The notes below the pieces were generated by a model. It was not told where the DNA came from. It did no database searches and worked only from the letters and a program-made list of their open reading frames with translations. A stretch of 33,764 nt of DNA from a virus. The stretch is taken from positions 1 to 33,764 of the IMG/VR virus record IMGVR_UViG_3300030406_004736; one strand, written 5' to 3'. A program made the translations under genes and the position numbers. Below are positions 10,534 through 27,117 of this stretch, piece by piece; the first letter of the stretch is position 1; each line of letters starts with the position of its first letter.

Positions 10534-10902
10534 ATGGCTCTCAAAGTAAGTGGATACGCCAGTTCAAGTGGATTGAAAAACAAAATCGTTTTTCAGTCAA
10601 CAGTCACTGCAACTACGGACATAGATGTTCTTGGCACTGGTGGTTCAATAATCTCTCTTGATCTTGATAATCTTCACAGTGCTGCAATTTATTTTAAAAT
10701 GAAGACAAGCTCTGGGACTTACACTGCTGGGTCCACGTTTCCTGACTATCAATTTCGTATTCCTGCAAACACAGCAAAACGATTTGACTTTACTGATGGT
10801 TTGCCATTTGATCAGCTTACGTTCTGGTGCAATGATGGACCTCAGGCATCAGACACTGACAACCCAGGTGGCACAGTACTTGCGACTTTTGTTATTAAGT
10901 AG
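10534..10902 (+). CDS. Small beta-rich phage protein, copy 3 of a four-member family
   Basis: 122 residues starting MALKVSGYAS. It has the family core: GSIISLDLDNLHSAAIYFKM, a loop, RIPANTAKRFDF, then GLPFDQLTFWCND. Its own extended -10 promoter and a TGGTGG ribosome site lie upstream. It sits as a rightward two-gene insert inside leftward early genes, about 10 kb from copies 1 and 2, so it looks like a mobile cassette or a duplicated pair. Function unknown; probably a secreted or virion beta-sandwich. Confidence 0.75.
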   Translation: MALKVSGYASSSGLKNKIVFQSTVTATTDIDVLGTGGSIISLDLDNLHSAAIYFKMKTSSGTYTAGSTFPDYQFRIPANTAKRFDFTDGLPFDQLTFWCNDGPQASDTDNPGGTVLATFVIK

Positions 10903-10910
10903 GAAGAAAG

Positions 10911-11279
10911 ATGGCTCTCACAACAAGCACAATCTCTCAGAATCTCTTTACCACTATTTCTGAAGAGACTGATCTAGACCTTACTTTGGTTGGGTTCAAT
11001 AATGTAGACACTACGATTTACGCTATTGAGTTTGTAAACCCTAACACTGCCCCAGTTTACATTCGGCACATTTGGGGAACCAATGCTTCTGCTTTGAGTA
11101 CAAGCACTGATTACGACAACTGCTATCTTGTCCCCGCAGAGGGTAGCTTTTCTATATATTGTGGAACTGGGTACCTTACTGGTGGAGTCATTATGTGGGC
11201 TTCAACAGAAACTGGAGTAAACTCTTTGACTGCTCCTACGAGCCCAGTGTCTGTAAAGGTTGCTTACAAGAACACATGA
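10911..11279 (+). CDS. Small beta-rich phage protein, copy 4 of a four-member family
   Basis: 122 residues, MALTTSTISQNL..., with AGGAAG upstream. The core IYAIEFVNPNTAPVYIRHIW closely follows the copy-2 pattern (IEITNPGAEALYVKI). GGVIMWASTETGVNS parallels the GLSFWASTSASVGS block of copy 2. Thus copies 2 and 4, and copies 1 and 3, look like corresponding members of two pairs. The stop comes one base before the stop of the convergent gene. Confidence 0.75.
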   Translation: MALTTSTISQNLFTTISEETDLDLTLVGFNNVDTTIYAIEFVNPNTAPVYIRHIWGTNASALSTSTDYDNCYLVPAEGSFSIYCGTGYLTGGVIMWASTETGVNSLTAPTSPVSVKVAYKNT

Positions 11280-21751: not shown

Positions 21752-22195
21752 CTACTCCGAAGGCCTCATGTAAACCATGGGCTCTATGATTCCGGTGGGA
21801 TGGCATAGAAGGTACAGGATGACACCCTCTTCTTCCCAGTACTTAGTAAGAAGGCAGCACCATGATTGTAGAATGTCGATAGTGTATCGCTTGATGCCTG
21901 TGGAGCCACGAAGCCAGTTATACACTTGTGGTGGACGCTCACCCAGTGCGCGAGCAAATGAGTCAACACTGTGGCTTCTATTGAGTTGCTGCTGAATCTC
22001 ACGGTACAGTACAAATATGCGCAGACCTCCAGCCTGAACCTCGGACTTAATGAATGCACCAGTCAGATGACCATCAATCTCTCGATAGAACTGTTCAACC
22101 TCTTGAACCGTTTGCGGACGGAGAGAAGGGTTCGTTCTCTCAAGCATCCTGTGGAACCTATGCCAAGGTCGAGCTTCTTTGTAGTTGTCTTTCAT
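21752..22195 (-). CDS. Small helix-turn-helix protein beside the iteron region
   Basis: 147 residues, AAGG upstream. The middle (DSFARALGERPPQVYNWLRG) is a typical Cro/XRE helix-turn-helix with recognition helix PQVYNWL. The N-terminus is basic and helical; the end has a beta-rich stretch with Cys (CCLLTKYWEEEGVILYLLC). Its stop is just two bases from the last GGGACA box, so this may be the protein that binds those boxes, either as repressor or as replication factor. Confidence 0.65.
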   Translation of the reverse strand: MKDNYKEARPWHRFHRMLERTNPSLRPQTVQEVEQFYREIDGHLTGAFIKSEVQAGGLRIFVLYREIQQQLNRSHSVDSFARALGERPPQVYNWLRGSTGIKRYTIDILQSWCCLLTKYWEEEGVILYLLCHPTGIIEPMVYMRPSE

Positions 22196-22290: not shown

Positions 22291-22494
22291 GTGCGCGCCG
22301 TCTGTGCAAATGTCGCCCCTTCCACAATGGTGTCCGCCGTGCTGGGGTCAGCCAAAATGGCAGGTTTAACCTGCGATATGCGCGTGCGTCAAAGATTAAA
22401 GATCACCGGCAACCCGAAAAAGGCTACCCAGAAGAGTGTGTCTACCCGGCGTTCACTCCGTAGAGTACTGCGCCATAAGCGAAAGGTCAAGTGA
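22291..22494 (+). CDS. Small basic protein (putative)
   Basis: 67 residues from a GTG at 22291 behind GGGGGAG. It contains SAKMAGLTCDMRVRQRLKIT, then RSLRRVLRHKRKVK; strongly basic, DNA-binding-like. However, a possible leftward promoter overlaps its end, and no promoter is seen upstream. It is the only rightward candidate in a leftward region, so it may be false. Confidence 0.35.
   Translation: MRAVCANVAPSTMVSAVLGSAKMAGLTCDMRVRQRLKITGNPKKATQKSVSTRRSLRRVLRHKRKVK
22462..22490 (-). promoter_or_regulatory. Putative leftward promoter upstream of the HTH gene
   Basis: Minus-strand TTGACC (22485-22490), 17 bases, TACTCT (22462-22467). A second TTGACT lies at 22239-22244, closer to the gene. Confidence 0.4.
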
Positions 22495-22572: not shown

Positions 22573-22609
22573 GGGCGCGCGCGTGTGTGTTCAGGAGGCT
22601 GATAGGGCG
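22573..22609 (+). repeat. Boundary repeat R1 (diverged)
   Basis: GCGCGCGCGTGTGTG followed by a changed middle and the fixed end CTGATAGGGCG. It is the leftmost of seven copies. Other copies are at 23492, 24393, 25027, 25466, 25881 and 26673. Confidence 0.6.
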
Positions 22610-22623
22610 AACCTTCAGCCGAC

Positions 22624-22716
22624 TCAGGTGACGAGCCGGATGAAAGCGACCAGCACCAACCATGTTAGTGCGAGGTATGCGAGTGAACCGAGGACTTGTT
22701 GATAGACTGGAAACAT
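22624..22716 (-). CDS. 30-residue single-span membrane micro-protein
   Basis: AGGAGG lies nine bases before an ATG at 22716 that shares one base with the stop of the upstream gene (TAATG). It encodes MFPVYQQVLGSLAYLALTWL followed by about ten more hydrophobic residues, one clear membrane helix. Strong ribosome site plus stop-start coupling support a real gene. It could be a holin-like or toxin-type peptide; not testable from sequence alone. Confidence 0.5.
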   Translation of the reverse strand: MFPVYQQVLGSLAYLALTWLVLVAFIRLVT

Positions 22717-23399
22717 TATCGTTTCCCTCCTGGGCTGTGGTCAATGAAGCCAACAACCGGGCCGTCCTTTGAACCGTCGCAGACTCGGCAAGTGTTGCAC
22801 GTTACAACTTCCGGGTCCAACTGTGCAGGGCATACGATGCCAGCGTGGCCATCTGGGGTGGTGAACTTTCGCCCGATGTAACCCTTGGGCAGTAAAACAG
22901 TAGCACGCCAACCGTCCGCCACTGCCTTGTCAGCTTGTGCGAGCGTATCGCATGAGGCCATGATGTGGCCCTTCCAGCGCCTTGACGTGTCAAGCGCCCA
23001 ACCGTGAGTGTATCCGATGAGGGCGAGACCCTCGCGCCTTACAGTCTCGCGAATGTACGCGCCATCAATGGGAGACAGTCCCGCAGGGTCTCCGAGTGAG
23101 CCGAGCCGTACCATTTTAGCCGCGCGTGATGCATTGGCGAGCGCGCCGCGTAGGCTGTAGTTCTTGCCGCGTTTGTTGGCTTTGACCATTGCAGCGTGTG
23201 AGAATGACGGCGTGCCGTGTTGTGCGTAGCATAGCGGCTTTCCGTTGCCACCCTTGCCGCCGTGCTTTTCGTGTAGCAGCGGACAGCCCACATCCCGGCA
23301 GGATTGTAGCGACTCCTCTCGGGTCTCGCCTATCCATATAGTGGGGACGTTGCCGGTTTTCTTGTTGGTGCTGGTAGCTGTGCAAAGGTATTTCGCCAT
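22716..23399 (-). CDS. Cysteine-containing phage protein (Gp88/DUF7227-like)
   Basis: 227 residues. The opening NKKTGNVPTIWIGETREESL, CRDVGCPLLHE and KPLCYAQHG, plus a late CNTCRVCDG, look like phage proteins such as mycobacteriophage Gp88/DUF7227 with several metal-like Cys. The middle has LSPIDGAYIRETVRREGLAL. The family is suggested, not certain. It is the left-end gene of the repeat-separated array, with its own promoter (23433-23461). Confidence 0.6.
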   Translation of the reverse strand: MAKYLCTATSTNKKTGNVPTIWIGETREESLQSCRDVGCPLLHEKHGGKGGNGKPLCYAQHGTPSFSHAAMVKANKRGKNYSLRGALANASRAAKMVRLGSLGDPAGLSPIDGAYIRETVRREGLALIGYTHGWALDTSRRWKGHIMASCDTLAQADKAVADGWRATVLLPKGYIGRKFTTPDGHAGIVCPAQLDPEVVTCNTCRVCDGSKDGPVVGFIDHSPGGKR

Positions 23400-23432: not shown

Positions 23433-23461
23433 AATATAACCGAATAACTTTTAACCGTCAA
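23433..23461 (-). promoter_or_regulatory. Array promoter (unit ending at 22716)
   Basis: Minus-strand TTGACG (23456-23461), 17-base spacer, TATATT (23433-23438), with GGTTATATTATT like the others. Confidence 0.7.
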
Positions 23462-23491: not shown

Positions 23492-23532
23492 AGCGCGCGC
23501 GTGCGTGGACCCTCGATCGTGATAGGGCGCGC
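23492..23532 (+). repeat. Boundary repeat R2
   Basis: GCGCGCGCGTGCGTGGACCC, then CTCGATC and GTGATAGGGCGCGC. Same layout as the others, with a diverged middle. Confidence 0.75.
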
Positions 23533-23564
23533 AAAAATGGGGTGAGGGCCGAAGCCCCCACCCC
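23533..23564 (-). terminator. UUCG-loop intrinsic terminator
   Basis: Stem 23539-23549 with 23554-23564 around CGAA (UUCG on the minus RNA), T-tract of five on the minus strand. The one A-C mismatch on plus is a G-U pair on minus, so the hairpin acts leftward. It follows the stop at 23576. Confidence 0.75.
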
Positions 23565-23575
23565 TCGCGACACAC

Positions 23576-24289
23576 TCAGACGCTCTGCACAAGTGGCAGA
23601 AGGTCTGGACGGAAGTGCGCCACGACCGACAGAAAATCTGTGTGTCTGTGCCCATTGATTGCGATGCTCTCAACCTTGGATTGATTCGGTCCAATCAGCG
23701 TAAGCGTCCTGTATTGGATGACTTCCCAAGGCGTAGGGATGCACTTGTTCAGCAGCGATACGATGGAGCTGATTGACTGTGCCGGGTTACTCTTGCGCTT
23801 CTCGGCTTGCTTTTGCGCTTGCTCGATGTTCTTTTGAAGTCGTCCAGCGTTCACGGCGTCATGGTCTACAATGCCGGGTTTTATCGTGAAGGCTTGCACC
23901 TGTTCTCCAACCGCTTGAAGCGCCCACTCTTCTTTGACCGATACGATTTGGAGTATTGCGCGACCGTTGGCGCCTCGTGCAATGACGTGTTTTACCTTTG
24001 CGCCGCCTTGACTCTTTCCGCTTTGTCGAGCCTTGACCCGGTCCACCAAAATGGTGAGCGCCTCGGATGCAAGGTCAGCCGGGATGCCGTAAGGGTTGAG
24101 AAGGTGCGCGGCATCGAGCGCCGTCAAGCCGTCAAGGCGCTGTGCGTCTTGGTCAACCTTGCGGGTCACTGCCGCTGTCGATGCTTGCAATATCCGGTTT
24201 TTGATAGACTTGTCTGTCTTGGACTCGTGTCCAATCACTGCAAAGTATTGCCCGCCTTTGGTCATCTCGATTGTATCTAAAATGTTCAT
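23576..24289 (-). CDS. Unknown phage protein
   Basis: 237 residues from the ATG at 24289 with GGAGAAACAA before it. Basic, mixed alpha/beta (TDKSIKNRILQASTAAVTRK; RLQKNIEQAQKQAEKRKSNP). No motif recognised. It is a single-gene unit with its own promoter, terminator and repeat. Confidence 0.65.
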   Translation of the reverse strand: MNILDTIEMTKGGQYFAVIGHESKTDKSIKNRILQASTAAVTRKVDQDAQRLDGLTALDAAHLLNPYGIPADLASEALTILVDRVKARQSGKSQGGAKVKHVIARGANGRAILQIVSVKEEWALQAVGEQVQAFTIKPGIVDHDAVNAGRLQKNIEQAQKQAEKRKSNPAQSISSIVSLLNKCIPTPWEVIQYRTLTLIGPNQSKVESIAINGHRHTDFLSVVAHFRPDLLPLVQSV

Positions 24290-24310
24290 TTGTTTCTCCG
24301 TCTGAAACAT

Positions 24311-24324
24311 GTCCTTTATTGGAC
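24311..24324. promoter_or_regulatory. Conserved leader palindrome GTCC-N6-GGAC
   Basis: GTCCTTTATTGGAC. Lies just after the -10, near the expected start of transcription. The same N6-spaced palindrome occurs at 24947-24960 and 25366-25379. Confidence 0.55.
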
Positions 24325-24330
24325 CTTATT

Positions 24331-24359
24331 AATATATCACGCGTTCATTCTAAAGTCAA
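24331..24359 (-). promoter_or_regulatory. Array promoter (unit 24289)
   Basis: Minus-strand TTGACT (24354-24359), 17 bases, TATATT (24331-24336). It is the strongest of the array. Confidence 0.75.
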
Positions 24360-24392: not shown

Positions 24393-24432
24393 GGGCGCGC
24401 GCGTGTGAACCCTTACGAGTGATAGGGCGCGC
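24393..24432 (+). repeat. Boundary repeat R3
   Basis: GGGCGCGCGCGTGTGAACCC then TTAC and GAGTGATAGGGCGCGC. It lies between the terminator of the upstream gene and the promoter of the next. Confidence 0.8.
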
Positions 24433-24466
24433 AAAAAATGGACGCCGGACCCGAAGGCCCGACGCC
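24433..24466 (-). terminator. UUCG-loop intrinsic terminator
   Basis: Stem 24440-24451 with 24456-24466 around CGAA; minus T-tract of six (24433-24438). Two plus-strand mismatches become G-U on minus; one base is bulged. Confidence 0.75.
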
Positions 24467-24477
24467 CTGCCCCTTCC

Positions 24478-24918
24478 CTATTTGTTTACAGGATGCTCGT
24501 CTGCTGGGGTTGCGACCGTGAGCATGCCCGCAGCCCTGCGGATTGCTGCAAGCTCTGCACCAATCACCGCGTGCTTCGCGTTAATCTCGTCGAGACGCTC
24601 CATCAGAATCTTGATTGCTTGGGCGTCGTTTGTCGGTCCCGTCAACCCGGTGCGCTGACTCATGAGTTCGGGGTGGTACTTGAACAACGCATCGAAGAGG
24701 TTGTCAATATCCTCAGTACTCATATCGGCCACGTCTGCGACATCGAAATCTGCTCGAACCTCAAACTCTTCATCGCAAAGGTCTACGCTTCCATAGTTGG
24801 CGTCACCTCCAATGTCGATGTGATACTCAACTTCACCGGAGGTAATCTGACCAGTCTTCTCGATTGAGAGTATGGTTATGTAGTCATTGATTTCGGGATT
24901 TGGAGTGTACTTACTCAT
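24478..24918 (-). CDS. Unknown acidic phage protein
   Basis: 146 residues. Beta-rich acidic start (YHIDIGGDANYGSVDLCDEE), helical end (KILMERLDEINAKHAVIGAE). GGAAG before ATG. One gene, own promoter and terminator. No motif recognised. Confidence 0.65.
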   Translation of the reverse strand: MSKYTPNPEINDYITILSIEKTGQITSGEVEYHIDIGGDANYGSVDLCDEEFEVRADFDVADVADMSTEDIDNLFDALFKYHPELMSQRTGLTGPTNDAQAIKILMERLDEINAKHAVIGAELAAIRRAAGMLTVATPADEHPVNK

Positions 24919-24946: not shown

Positions 24947-24960
24947 GTCCATTGTTGGAC
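24947..24960. promoter_or_regulatory. Conserved leader palindrome GTCC-N6-GGAC
   Basis: GTCCATTGTTGGAC just after the -10 of the 24918 gene; same place as at 24311 and 25366. Confidence 0.55.
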
Positions 24961-24966
24961 CTTATT

Positions 24967-24995
24967 AATGTAACCGATGTTGTCTATGGAGTCAA
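24967..24995 (-). promoter_or_regulatory. Array promoter (unit 24918)
   Basis: Minus-strand TTGACT (24990-24995), 17 bases, TACATT (24967-24972). Confidence 0.72.
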
Positions 24996-25026: not shown

Positions 25027-25065
25027 GGGCGCACGCGCGTGTGAACCCATTCGAGTGATAGGGCG
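25027..25065 (+). repeat. Boundary repeat R4
   Basis: GGGCGCACGCGCGTGTGAAC, then CCATTC and GAGTGATAGGGCG. Its 23-base core is identical to that of R5. Confidence 0.8.
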
Positions 25066-25074
25066 AATATAAAA

Positions 25075-25096
25075 GGCGAGGGCCGAAGCCCCCGCC
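25075..25096 (-). terminator. UUCG-loop terminator
   Basis: Stem 25075-25083 with 25088-25096, CGAA loop; the plus A-C mismatch is G-U on minus. The T-tract is short (TTTT then ATA). Confidence 0.65.
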
Positions 25097-25102
25097 ATTC
25101 TT

Positions 25103-25345
25103 TTACACCAACCCCAGAACCAGAAGCCATGATGGGCAGCCTTCGAAGTTCCACCCATCGGGTTCTACCATGTCACCGTCAAGAGTTTCGCAAAGGCTAT
25201 CGAATACCCATCCTTCGATTTCCTCAAGTGGGGGAACGTCAAACACCTGACCTCGCCACTCGATAGTTTCGGGCAGGCCGTCATCTGGTCGGCATCCGCG
25301 CTCGATGATTTCGCCCACGGCTTTATTGATGGTAATAGTTCTCAT
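25103..25345 (-). CDS. Small unknown phage protein
   Basis: 80 residues from the ATG at 25345 (GGAG upstream), MRTITINKAVGEIIERGCRP... acidic, one Trp-rich end. Single-gene unit in the array. No motif recognised. Confidence 0.6.
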   Translation of the reverse strand: MRTITINKAVGEIIERGCRPDDGLPETIEWRGQVFDVPPLEEIEGWVFDSLCETLDGDMVEPDGWNFEGCPSWLLVLGLV

Positions 25346-25365
25346 GATTGTACTCCGTCTGTACA

Positions 25366-25379
25366 GTCCTTCATTGGAC
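25366..25379. promoter_or_regulatory. Conserved leader palindrome GTCC-N6-GGAC
   Basis: GTCCTTCATTGGAC, third copy of the array leader palindrome, downstream of the -10 of the 25345 gene. Confidence 0.55.
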
Positions 25380-25385
25380 ATTAAT

Positions 25386-25414
25386 AGTTTAACTGATGTT
25401 CATTCTAAAGTCAA
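25386..25414 (-). promoter_or_regulatory. Array promoter (unit 25345)
   Basis: Minus-strand TTGACT (25409-25414), 17 bases, TAAACT (25386-25391). The first ten spacer bases (TTAGAATGAA) equal those of the promoter at 24331-24359. Confidence 0.7.
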
Positions 25415-25465
25415 CAGTTACTTAAAGAAAGTTTCGCGTGTGTGTGTCTGACCAATCAGAGGCCT

Positions 25466-25503
25466 GCGCGCGCGCGTGTGAACCCATTCGAGTGATAGGG
25501 CGC
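25466..25503 (+). repeat. Boundary repeat R5
   Basis: GCGCGCGCGCGTGTGAACCC, then ATTC and GAGTGATAGGGCGC. Longest alternating purine-pyrimidine run of the set (about 16 bases). Confidence 0.8.
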
Positions 25504-25511
25504 ATGAAAGG

Positions 25512-25537
25512 GGCGGGAGCCCCGAAGGGCCCCCGCC
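25512..25537 (-). terminator. UUCG-loop hairpin terminator
   Basis: Eleven-position stem GGCGGGAGCCC with GGGCCCCCGCC (25512-25522, 25527-25537), loop CGAA. The single A-C on plus is G-U on minus. Only a short T-run (CCCCTTTC) follows, so termination may be partial. Confidence 0.65.
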
Positions 25538-25542
25538 TGTGC

Positions 25543-25743
25543 TCAGTCCTTGACGATGAGTCGCTGACCGATTCCGGTTCCCAGCTTGCCGGGCGCTGCG
25601 GCGAAGACTGACCAGCAGTCCTCACACATGTACGCCCACGGACCCCTGTAGGTCTTCGCGTCGTACTCCGCCTTTGCGCTCTTCCCCTGCATCTTGCAGG
25701 TGTCGCAGTCAGGCAGCTCTGACATTGTCACTTGAGTTCCCAT
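25543..25743 (-). CDS. Small zinc-knuckle phage protein
   Basis: 66 residues from the ATG at 25743 (GGAGG upstream). CDTCKMQGKSAKAEYDAKT then GPWAYMCEDCW gives a two-knuckle zinc site; short proteins of this pattern recur in phages. A longer upstream frame would run through the promoter. Single-gene unit. Confidence 0.7.
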   Translation of the reverse strand: MGTQVTMSELPDCDTCKMQGKSAKAEYDAKTYRGPWAYMCEDCWSVFAAAPGKLGTGIGQRLIVKD

Positions 25744-25787
25744 TTGTCCTCCGTCTGGACGGGTTGTATCGCTTGATGCGATGTGAT

Positions 25788-25816
25788 ACTGTACCTCGCG
25801 TTCACTGCAAAGGCAA
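25788..25816 (-). promoter_or_regulatory. Array promoter (unit 25743)
   Basis: Minus-strand TTGCCT (25811-25816), 17 bases, TACAGT (25788-25793). Weaker -35 than the others. A GTCC-N7-GGAC inverted repeat (25747-25761) encloses the ribosome site of this unit. Confidence 0.6.
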
Positions 25817-25880
25817 CAACATTTGTGTGATTTTTTATGATGCGTAGCTCGCCCGTTGTTAGCCCAGCATTGCGCCATGT

Positions 25881-25920
25881 GGCGCGTGCGCGTGTGAACC
25901 CACTTGAGTGATAGGGCGCG
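25881..25920 (+). repeat. Boundary repeat R6
   Basis: GGCGCGTGCGCGTGTGAACC, then CACTT and GAGTGATAGGGCGCG. Same element. Confidence 0.8.
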
Positions 25921-25922
25921 TC

Positions 25923-25955
25923 AAAAAAAATGGCCGGGAGCCGAAGCTCCCGACC
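25923..25955 (-). terminator. UUCG-loop intrinsic terminator with eight-T tract
   Basis: Stem 25932-25941 with 25946-25955 around CGAA; eight T on the minus strand (25923-25930). The C-A mismatch on plus is G-U on minus. Confidence 0.8.
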
Positions 25956-25968
25956 GGGCGGACACCAT

Positions 25969-26562
25969 TCACCCAACCCTCATATACTCTCGCTCGACGT
26001 TGACGATGTCCTCGCACATCTCAACAAGTCGCGCTTTGCTGTAGTCCTTGTAATCGTTGTTGCCGCCTGCAAGGTTCCGAACGAATCGGTGCGACGACAC
26101 AGCCGGTGGCTCATCGTGTGCTGATGCCAGGAACGTGACGAGCACATACTCAAACCCGCCAGATTCGATTTCATTCCGCTGCTCATCTGTCATGTCAGGG
26201 TCAGCGAGGGCCTCGTCCTTGGTGTACACGATGCAAGCGAGCTTGCTGCACTTGAGCGCGGACAGCTCGACCTTGCTGCGGTCAACGCATACAAGCGCCT
26301 CTCCACGATGGAGCCGAGCTTTAAACATGTCCTCTGTCATGTCATCCGTCAGCTTATAGTTGCCCGACAGAAACAAGTCTTCATTGAAAAGAAGCTTGTA
26401 TGCTCCTTGTCTGCCAAGGTTAATAGCATCCCTTACACACTCGATAGCGGTGCCACGGTCAGCCGGGTTCTTGAGGATTGAACCGACTGCCGAGCCGTCA
26501 AGCTGACGGTCAGCGATTGGGTGGATGTAGATGTTGCCAATAGTTGCGAGTGGTGTCGCCAT
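25969..26562 (-). CDS. Unknown phage protein
   Basis: 197 residues from the ATG at 26562 with AGGG upstream; a start 13 codons earlier (26601) lacks a ribosome site. Mixed alpha/beta, soluble, with KCSKLACIVYTKDEALADPD and a basic end. No motif recognised. Single-gene unit; its upstream region holds a GTAGCCG palindrome. Confidence 0.65.
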   Translation of the reverse strand: MATPLATIGNIYIHPIADRQLDGSAVGSILKNPADRGTAIECVRDAINLGRQGAYKLLFNEDLFLSGNYKLTDDMTEDMFKARLHRGEALVCVDRSKVELSALKCSKLACIVYTKDEALADPDMTDEQRNEIESGGFEYVLVTFLASAHDEPPAVSSHRFVRNLAGGNNDYKDYSKARLVEMCEDIVNVEREYMRVG

Positions 26563-26612
26563 GATAGTTACCCTATGGGTGATGTGAGCTTGATTGCTCA
26601 TTGATTAAACAC

Positions 26613-26672: not shown

Positions 26673-26710
26673 AGCGCACGCGCGTGTAAACCCGCACGAG
26701 TGATAGGGCT
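26673..26710 (+). repeat. Boundary repeat R7
   Basis: GCACGCGCGTGTAAACCC, then GCAC and GAGTGATAGGGC. Rightmost complete copy. Confidence 0.78.
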
Positions 26711-26720
26711 AAAAGAAATA

Positions 26721-26744
26721 GCCGCCACCCCGAAGGGCAGCGGC
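26721..26744 (-). terminator. UUCG-loop hairpin
   Basis: Ten-position stem 26721-26730 with 26735-26744, CGAA loop. Two plus mismatches are G-U on minus. Followed by TATTTCTTTT on the minus strand. Confidence 0.7.
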
Positions 26745-26751
26745 CAGTGGT

Positions 26752-27117
26752 CTACTTTGCAGAACACTGCTCGAACTCTGCAACCTCATGGCTGCAAATG
26801 TACTCGCCGGTTGTCTTGCTGACTTGGTTCCAGACAAGAGGGAACCGCAGAGGTGCGCCACACTCGCAACGGTGCGATGGGGTGTAGAAGTATGGAAGCG
26901 GCTCAAGGTTTTGGCAGATGTCACGGATAGCCCTGAGTCCTGCGTCGGTTTCTTGGGCCATGTTCATGGTGAGTCGGAATCCTTCAAAGGCACCTTCGGT
27001 ATTGCCTTCTGCGAGTAGGTCCATAATTTTCTTAAGGCCTAAAACTGTAGCAATGTTTGCGGCAATAGCTGCCTCTGCAAAGAAAAGGGGCGTAGGGATA
27101 GGGTTATTTTTTGGCAT
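26752..27117 (-). CDS. Unknown phage protein with cysteine motif
   Basis: 121 residues; helical first half (FFAEAAIAANIATVLGLKKI), then CECGAPLRFPLVWNQVS and YICSHEVAE, which looks like a rubredoxin-like zinc site. AGGACACC before the ATG. It is the first (rightmost) unit of the leftward array. Confidence 0.65.
   Translation of the reverse strand: MPKNNPIPTPLFFAEAAIAANIATVLGLKKIMDLLAEGNTEGAFEGFRLTMNMAQETDAGLRAIRDICQNLEPLPYFYTPSHRCECGAPLRFPLVWNQVSKTTGEYICSHEVAEFEQCSAK

Follow-up and report, generated by a model that had tools for sequence, protein, structure and literature searches.

What is the role of a short sequence that recurs in one gene gap after another of a viral genome and always points in the same direction? 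The question is raised by the record of an uncultured virus, 33,764 bases long and called the window below. Nearly all of the region 3790-27117 is coded on the minus strand, followed by late-type genes on the plus strand. Seven copies of the element, lying in one direction in gene gaps, had been described in an earlier note. This observation is confirmed: all seven are present at the positions given there, on the plus strand, and every copy lies in a gap between minus-strand genes.

Anatomy of the element and its position between genes

The first copy (E1, 22575-22608) has an alternating tract at 22575-22590 and the core TGATAGGGC at 22600-22608; it is a variant without CCC and is located upstream of an HTH gene. 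The other copies on the plus strand are E2 (23493-23528, tract 23493-23507, core 23520-23528), E3 (24395-24428, tract 24395-24407, core 24420-24428), which is the copy named in the earlier note, E4 (25029-25064, tract 25029-25043, core 25056-25064), E5 (25465-25501, tract 25465-25480, core 25493-25501), E6 (25882-25917, tract 25882-25896, core 25909-25917) and E7 (26674-26709, tract 26674-26688, core 26701-26709).

The design proposed initially was an alternating tract, AACCC and a fixed core. Its outer parts hold, since the alternating tract and the 9-mer TGATAGGGC are fixed, but they are the only invariant portion; AACCC and GAG are variable. AACCC...GAG is kept in five of the seven copies, the copy at 23492 reads GACCC...TCG and CCC is absent from the copy at 22573. 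A search of the window for AACCC-N5-GAGTGATAGGGC with up to three mismatches yielded 5 matches, compared to 0.08 expected from the shuffled window. GAGTGATAGGGC with up to two mismatches was found 12 times (1.9 expected from shuffles), and its five exact matches are all elements. Recent gene duplication can be ruled out as the source of the copies, because the genes separating them belong to different families that are unrelated to one another.

The earlier note had overlooked a link to the leftward genes, whose 3' ends the element adjoins with a hairpin placed before it. On the coding strand, the order at each copy is stop codon, hairpin, GCCCTATCA (the box), spacer, alternating tract (CACACGCGCGC) and a sigma-70-like promoter. 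The box is found 16-51 nt past the upstream stop codon in many gaps (38-51 nt in six of the seven window gaps). The next gene starts well downstream, beyond tract and promoter, at a distance from the box that is variable and larger than that between stop codon and box.

The box is preceded, on the coding strand, by a strong hairpin with which the upstream gene ends; in six of the seven window gaps this hairpin sits between stop codon and box, mostly with a T run. The hairpins are all on the minus strand. The one before E1 (22619-22639, CCGGCTC...GAGTCGG) has no T run. The hairpin before E2 (23539-23564), at the 3' end of gene 23576-24310, has a TTCG loop and a T run and resembles an intrinsic terminator. 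T runs also accompany the hairpins before E3 (24440-24467, 3' end of gene 24478-24918), E4 (25075-25096, gene 25103-25381) and E6 (25932-25955, a T8 run, gene 25969-26601). The hairpin before E5 is located at 25512-25537 (gene 25543-25878), and that before E7 at 26720-26745, with a T-rich run (gene 26752-27117).

On the other side of the element, again on the minus strand, promoter-like sites with 17-bp spacing were observed after E1 (22462-22490, TTGACC-17-TACTCT, conserved in L198, L199 and L200), E2 (23433-23461, TTGACG-17-TATATT), E3 (24331-24359, TTGACT-17-TATATT), E4 (24967-24995, TTGACT-17-TACATT), E5 (25386-25414, TTGACT-17-TAAACT) and E6 (25788-25816, TTGCCT-17-TACAGT). E7 is followed by a weak match with 16-bp spacing. 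In the window group, comprising the window and the related records L198, L199 and L200, promoter matches follow nearly all copies, and 16 of 17 gaps gave a match with p <= 0.05 against shuffled gaps. The -35 offset from the box ranges from 58 to 112 nt in this group without helical phase, which argues against a classical activator site. In the divergent phages L202-L208, hairpins often have no T run and consensus promoters were mostly unrecognised.

The core could also be read as a plus-strand promoter for a single-subunit RNA polymerase of the phage. It is an invariant asymmetric sequence ending in GGG plus C and occurs in a single orientation, and its ATAGGG resembles the start of T7-class promoters. 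Such a promoter would, however, direct transcription antisense to the leftward genes, into their 3' ends, and host-type sigma-70 promoters are present. No PF00940 match was obtained in 12 records of up to 70 kb, although no control genome matched either. We regard this reading as extremely improbable.

Three leaders on the minus strand (24307-24330, 24950-24965 and 25360-25380) have an inverted repeat in common, GTCC-N6-GGAC (variants of GTCCAATAAAGGAC included), directly past the -10 box, and also carry CAGACGGA, a ribosome-site-like motif. Repeat and motif are a candidate for a second operator or leader element.

Relatives of the element and comparison with known sites

Relatives were gathered by DNA-pattern and protein searches of IMG/VR. 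Complete copies (n = 40) were found in 12 phage records, namely the window and 11 IMG/VR records (G001, G002, G005, G006, G007, G008, G009, G010, G011, G017 and G026). The number is composed of 37 copies from a scripted count plus L204-5949, L206-8186 and L178-3683; a truncated extra copy in contig L202, which starts within the box, comes in addition. Most loci returned by broad DNA pattern scans were single chance matches within genes, and only repeated copies or copies in an array context were kept. L121, an unrelated phage, was judged to be a chance match.

The 9-mer TGATAGGGC is exact in every copy, a count that is biased by the use of the exact core in searching. Degenerate copies of the 9-mer were not found in a scan allowing up to two mismatches, and L202 and L205, which were located via protein similarity alone and independently of DNA patterns, carry exact cores too. 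The relatives keep the orientation relative to transcription seen in the window. Up to seven copies per record were observed, restricted to one array, with several of the records being fragments. In L202, two elements form a tandem pair (2766-2810), 36 bp apart, upstream of the gene for F0, a protein described below.

The motif search proposed in the earlier note was thus productive among uncultured phages, with 11 further records, but not elsewhere. The collection of cultured phages, many mycobacteriophages among them, gave no match (the low-complexity filter of BLAST may mask the tract), and plasmids gave only chance-level matches with E-values of at least 1. Relatives were likewise not found in searches of cultured phages, plasmids and GTDB genomes. 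No Rfam family reached the gathering threshold in the window, and the core sequence returned only chance strings from the literature. The statement that no named element has this sequence holds across the collections and literature examined. With nothing found in cultured phages or Rfam and only chance-level plasmid matches, a mobile element, known repeat or known RNA was rejected as an identity. A parS-type partition site of a phage-plasmid was rejected because the 12 records gave no match to ParB (PF02195), with controls matched. The same applies to an attachment or site-specific recombination site: neither tyrosine recombinases/integrases (PF00589) nor serine recombinases (PF00239) were detected in the 12 records, which may be fragments, and positive controls matched. 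We conclude that the element is a real, clade-wide and apparently undescribed phage element, the function of which we infer below.

Two types of described phage repeats invite comparison. The stoperators of cluster A mycobacteriophages (L5, TipsytheTRex) are 13-mer sites, more than 20 of which occur throughout the genome; they are bound by the immunity repressor, a monomer with an HTH and a Stoperator domain, and elongation is blocked (PMC9283540). Like stoperators (PMC9283540), the present element is a short asymmetric repeated site in small intergenic gaps, oriented with transcription, and an HTH-containing phage protein is implicated (here F0, as a candidate). It differs by its sequence (the invariant 9-bp box TGATAGGGC instead of the cluster A 13-mer), by the additional Z-prone tract and hairpin, and by its restriction to one array with up to seven observed copies per record, compared to more than 20 sites genome-wide. 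Furthermore, no integrase was found in the 12 records, and lysogeny is hence unsupported. Since sequence and genome-wide distribution differ, and binding and termination are putative here, we liken it to stoperators but do not class it as one. If the box is a stop site, the stoperator idea would extend beyond mycobacteriophages, and short portable insulators for compact gene arrays would come into view.

The SAS of cluster K mycobacteriophages, GGGATAGGAGCCC, is located 3-7 bp ahead of start codons (PMC3203893). SAS/ESAS share with the element that they are asymmetric, non-palindromic repeats with one main orientation, found in the non-structural half of the genome ahead of a shifting gene set (PMC3203893). 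The present element, in contrast, follows 3'-end hairpins far upstream of gene starts and features an alternating tract.

Alternation of the tract and its calculated Z-DNA propensity

The letters of the tract differ among phages (GCGCGCGCGTGTG, GCGCGTGTGCGTGCGCGC, GTGCGCGTGCGCGTGCGTGCG, CGCGCGAGCGCGCG), with the purine-pyrimidine alternation largely kept. The window tracts alternate over 13-16 bp, and those of relatives over up to 26 bp. In ten searched stretches, pure GC/GT alternating runs that contain no AT/TA steps and span at least 12 bp are nearly confined to the elements, and some of those counted as outside are in fact the truncated copy of L202 or elements that the filter had missed. 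In the window, the sole other pure run of this length (CGCGTGTGTGTGT, 25435-25447) has no core and is located in the same gap as E5.

The proposal that the alternating sequence favours Z-DNA under negative supercoiling is in line with a B-Z energy calculation, for which published B-Z energies (PMC3024258) and a 5-kb domain were used. By prediction, no other site of the window converts to Z-DNA as easily as the seven elements. Their calculated thresholds range from sigma -0.041 to -0.044, compared to a background median of -0.061, and from -0.036 to -0.044 across 37 copies; junction twist and stiffness were taken from general knowledge, so that absolute thresholds are approximate and the ranking is robust.

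A/T letters in the tracts keep the alternation in 104 cases and break it in 6. The neighbouring DUF7227 gene served for comparison: its fourfold sites show 188 transitions and 151 transversions among GC<->AT changes; the difference yields a p-value of about 4e-16, with the ratio of 104:6 biased upward because the tract is delimited by its own alternation. A fixed segment of 13 nt in 13 copies, a smaller set free of this bias, gave 29 to 0 (p about 1e-7); owing to the shared ancestry of the copies, both p-values overstate independence. Taken together, the 40 copies in 12 phage records and the energy calculation support the view that both core and Z-DNA potential are under selection, and the computational support for a conserved Z propensity and an invariant box is strong.

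These data could point to a purely structural supercoil buffer, in which the tract carries the function and TGATAGGGC merely sets the B-Z boundary, as a junction or a site for a host protein. Despite letter changes, alternation and calculated Z threshold are indeed conserved, and each of the seven window elements ranks above all other sites there. However, the 9-mer never varies between copies, an exactness for which a generic junction would have no need. The tract substitutions are also strand-biased (T for C 94 compared to A for G 10), a feature that Z-DNA alone does not predict and that indicates another influence on the tract besides Z-DNA. A buffer of this kind is quite unlikely.

Across the phage clade, selection appears to act on Z propensity, not on the letters, and to keep it in a constant position with respect to terminators and promoters. 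To our knowledge, little is established about what Z-DNA does physiologically in bacteria and in the viruses that infect them, and the 14-bp tract offers a compact natural system for testing Z-DNA function. Z-DNA-forming regions upstream of transcription start sites have been computed for mouse genes (PMC3024258). As in these regions (PMC3024258), an alternating CG/CA tract lies upstream of promoters and is predicted to flip under transcription-driven negative supercoiling; unlike them, the phage tract is coupled to the invariant box and to a hairpin and forms part of a family of phage repeats.

Candidate partner protein, gene cassettes and possible functions

The gene directly downstream of E1 (21752-22195, minus strand) encodes F0, a protein of 147 aa with a predicted Cro/C1-type HTH (helices 77-119). 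F0 homologues with 37-90% identity in the alignment are found in element-bearing records, and all F0-encoding records that include the upstream DNA have an element just upstream of the F0 gene. The pairing cannot be scored in contigs starting at F0 (L201, G019) or in G007, which begins past the expected F0 site; records with an F3 gene and no F0 are contigs that end ahead of the F0 region. Neither F0 nor the element is present in L115 and L116. Both have the DUF7227 gene, but as more distant phages they are a weak negative control.

The AlphaFold2 model of F0 is of moderate quality (pLDDT 78). In Foldseek it matched mostly Cro/C1-type HTH proteins with non-significant E-values, and Pfam gave weak HTH_3 and YdaS matches. 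By sequence, no convincing relation to solved structures, including solved repressors, was detected, and the searches used revealed no relatives of F0 in cultured phages, plasmids or GTDB genomes. Judged from these predictions, F0 is likely a DNA-binding protein. As an element-binding regulator it is a candidate. Its recognition-helix region varies between phages and the box is constant, and thus the HTH of F0 may not be the box reader. F0 also varies along with the rest of the genome, so its co-occurrence with the element could be plain descent.

If F0 or another regulator acted on GCCCTATCA, the element might be an operator or enhancer-type site that switches the whole gene array together. 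The promoter-like site after nearly every copy of the window group, the predicted Cro/C1-like HTH of F0 and the copy upstream of the F0 gene, as autoregulation would predict, are in accordance with this. Such a role nevertheless appears rather unlikely, since the distance from box to -35 (58-112 nt) shows no helical phase and the element lies close to the 3' end of the preceding gene, not to the promoter. The box is no clear palindrome, and its CCC arm is at a variable distance. A palindromic operator in particular was rejected: the CCC...GGG arms are separated by 8-14 nt, a spacing that varies even within one genome, and do not form a rigid dyad.

The genes between the elements change from phage to phage. 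Families F2, F6 (DUF7227), F9, F10, F20, F27 and F28 differ in order and combination across phages. The DUF7227 protein of the window (22716-23399) shares 77-90% identity among these uncultured phages, where it is present with or without the element, and about 30% with proteins of mycobacteriophages and cyanophages. Aligned with L203, the cassette mostly shows 76-91% identity per 100 columns, with homology ending at the gene edges. Window and L203 each have their own hairpin, element and promoter; box and alternation are still kept. Alignment and reshuffling indicate that the punctuation persists even though the genes it separates and the DNA between them change. A boundary function is compatible with this pattern, which does not demonstrate recombination at the element.

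In relatives, contig ends often coincide with an element or fall within about 120 bp of one, as observed for the starts of L198, L199, L200 and L203. Position 1 of L202 lies inside the box, that of L207 three bases ahead of it. Such ends can reflect cassette polymorphism or sequencing drop-out at hairpins.

A recombination boundary or cassette joint, at which homologous or site-specific exchange swaps cassettes between phages, was one of three roles put forward in the earlier note. The differing orders of the named families between elements, the contig ends near elements (one inside the box) and RecE/RecT-like proteins encoded in the window speak for it. On the other hand, the homology between the DUF7227 cassettes of window and L203, the only pair compared base by base, stops at gene edges, with hairpin, element and promoter being each phage's own. 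The absence of integrase and serine recombinase matches in the 12 records, where positive controls matched, also counts against it, and the contig ends are equally explicable by drop-out. We consider this role distinctly unlikely. The other two roles put forward, a putative protein site and a supercoil buffer separating transcription units, fit the anatomy better.

The sequences show the anatomy, orientation, box invariance, conserved alternation, calculated Z propensity, hairpin-promoter placement and F0 co-occurrence. The post-hairpin position, the unphased promoter, the orientation, the invariant box and the Z propensity favour an insulator, a site marking transcription boundaries within an array of early-region genes that are transcribed one by one. 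We put this reading forward tentatively, as possible though short of probable. The element would act after the 3' hairpin of one gene and ahead of the promoter of the next. A sequence-specific protein, for which the phage's own F0 is a candidate, may read the invariant GCCCTATCA box and, together with the hairpin, form an oriented stop for read-through. The tract would be poised for a flip to Z-DNA at about sigma -0.04. By flipping in vivo, it could absorb negative supercoils generated upstream of the next promoter and decouple neighbouring genes. Protein binding, the identity of the protein, Z-DNA in vivo and the read-through block are all putative.

A more specific form of the boundary reading is an insulator that senses superhelicity, in which the tract flip caused by transcription of the next gene would control the block of upstream read-through by the box protein. 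It would couple a fixed 9-bp protein box to a tract that drifts in sequence with its B-Z threshold kept near sigma -0.04. We regard this form as unlikely; if true, the element would give a bacterial virus a dedicated topological boundary.

Apart from the element, the window contains tandem pairs of small-protein genes at 83-846 and 10534-11279. The two pairs are far apart and apparently mutually paralogous, with the same loci matched in L152.
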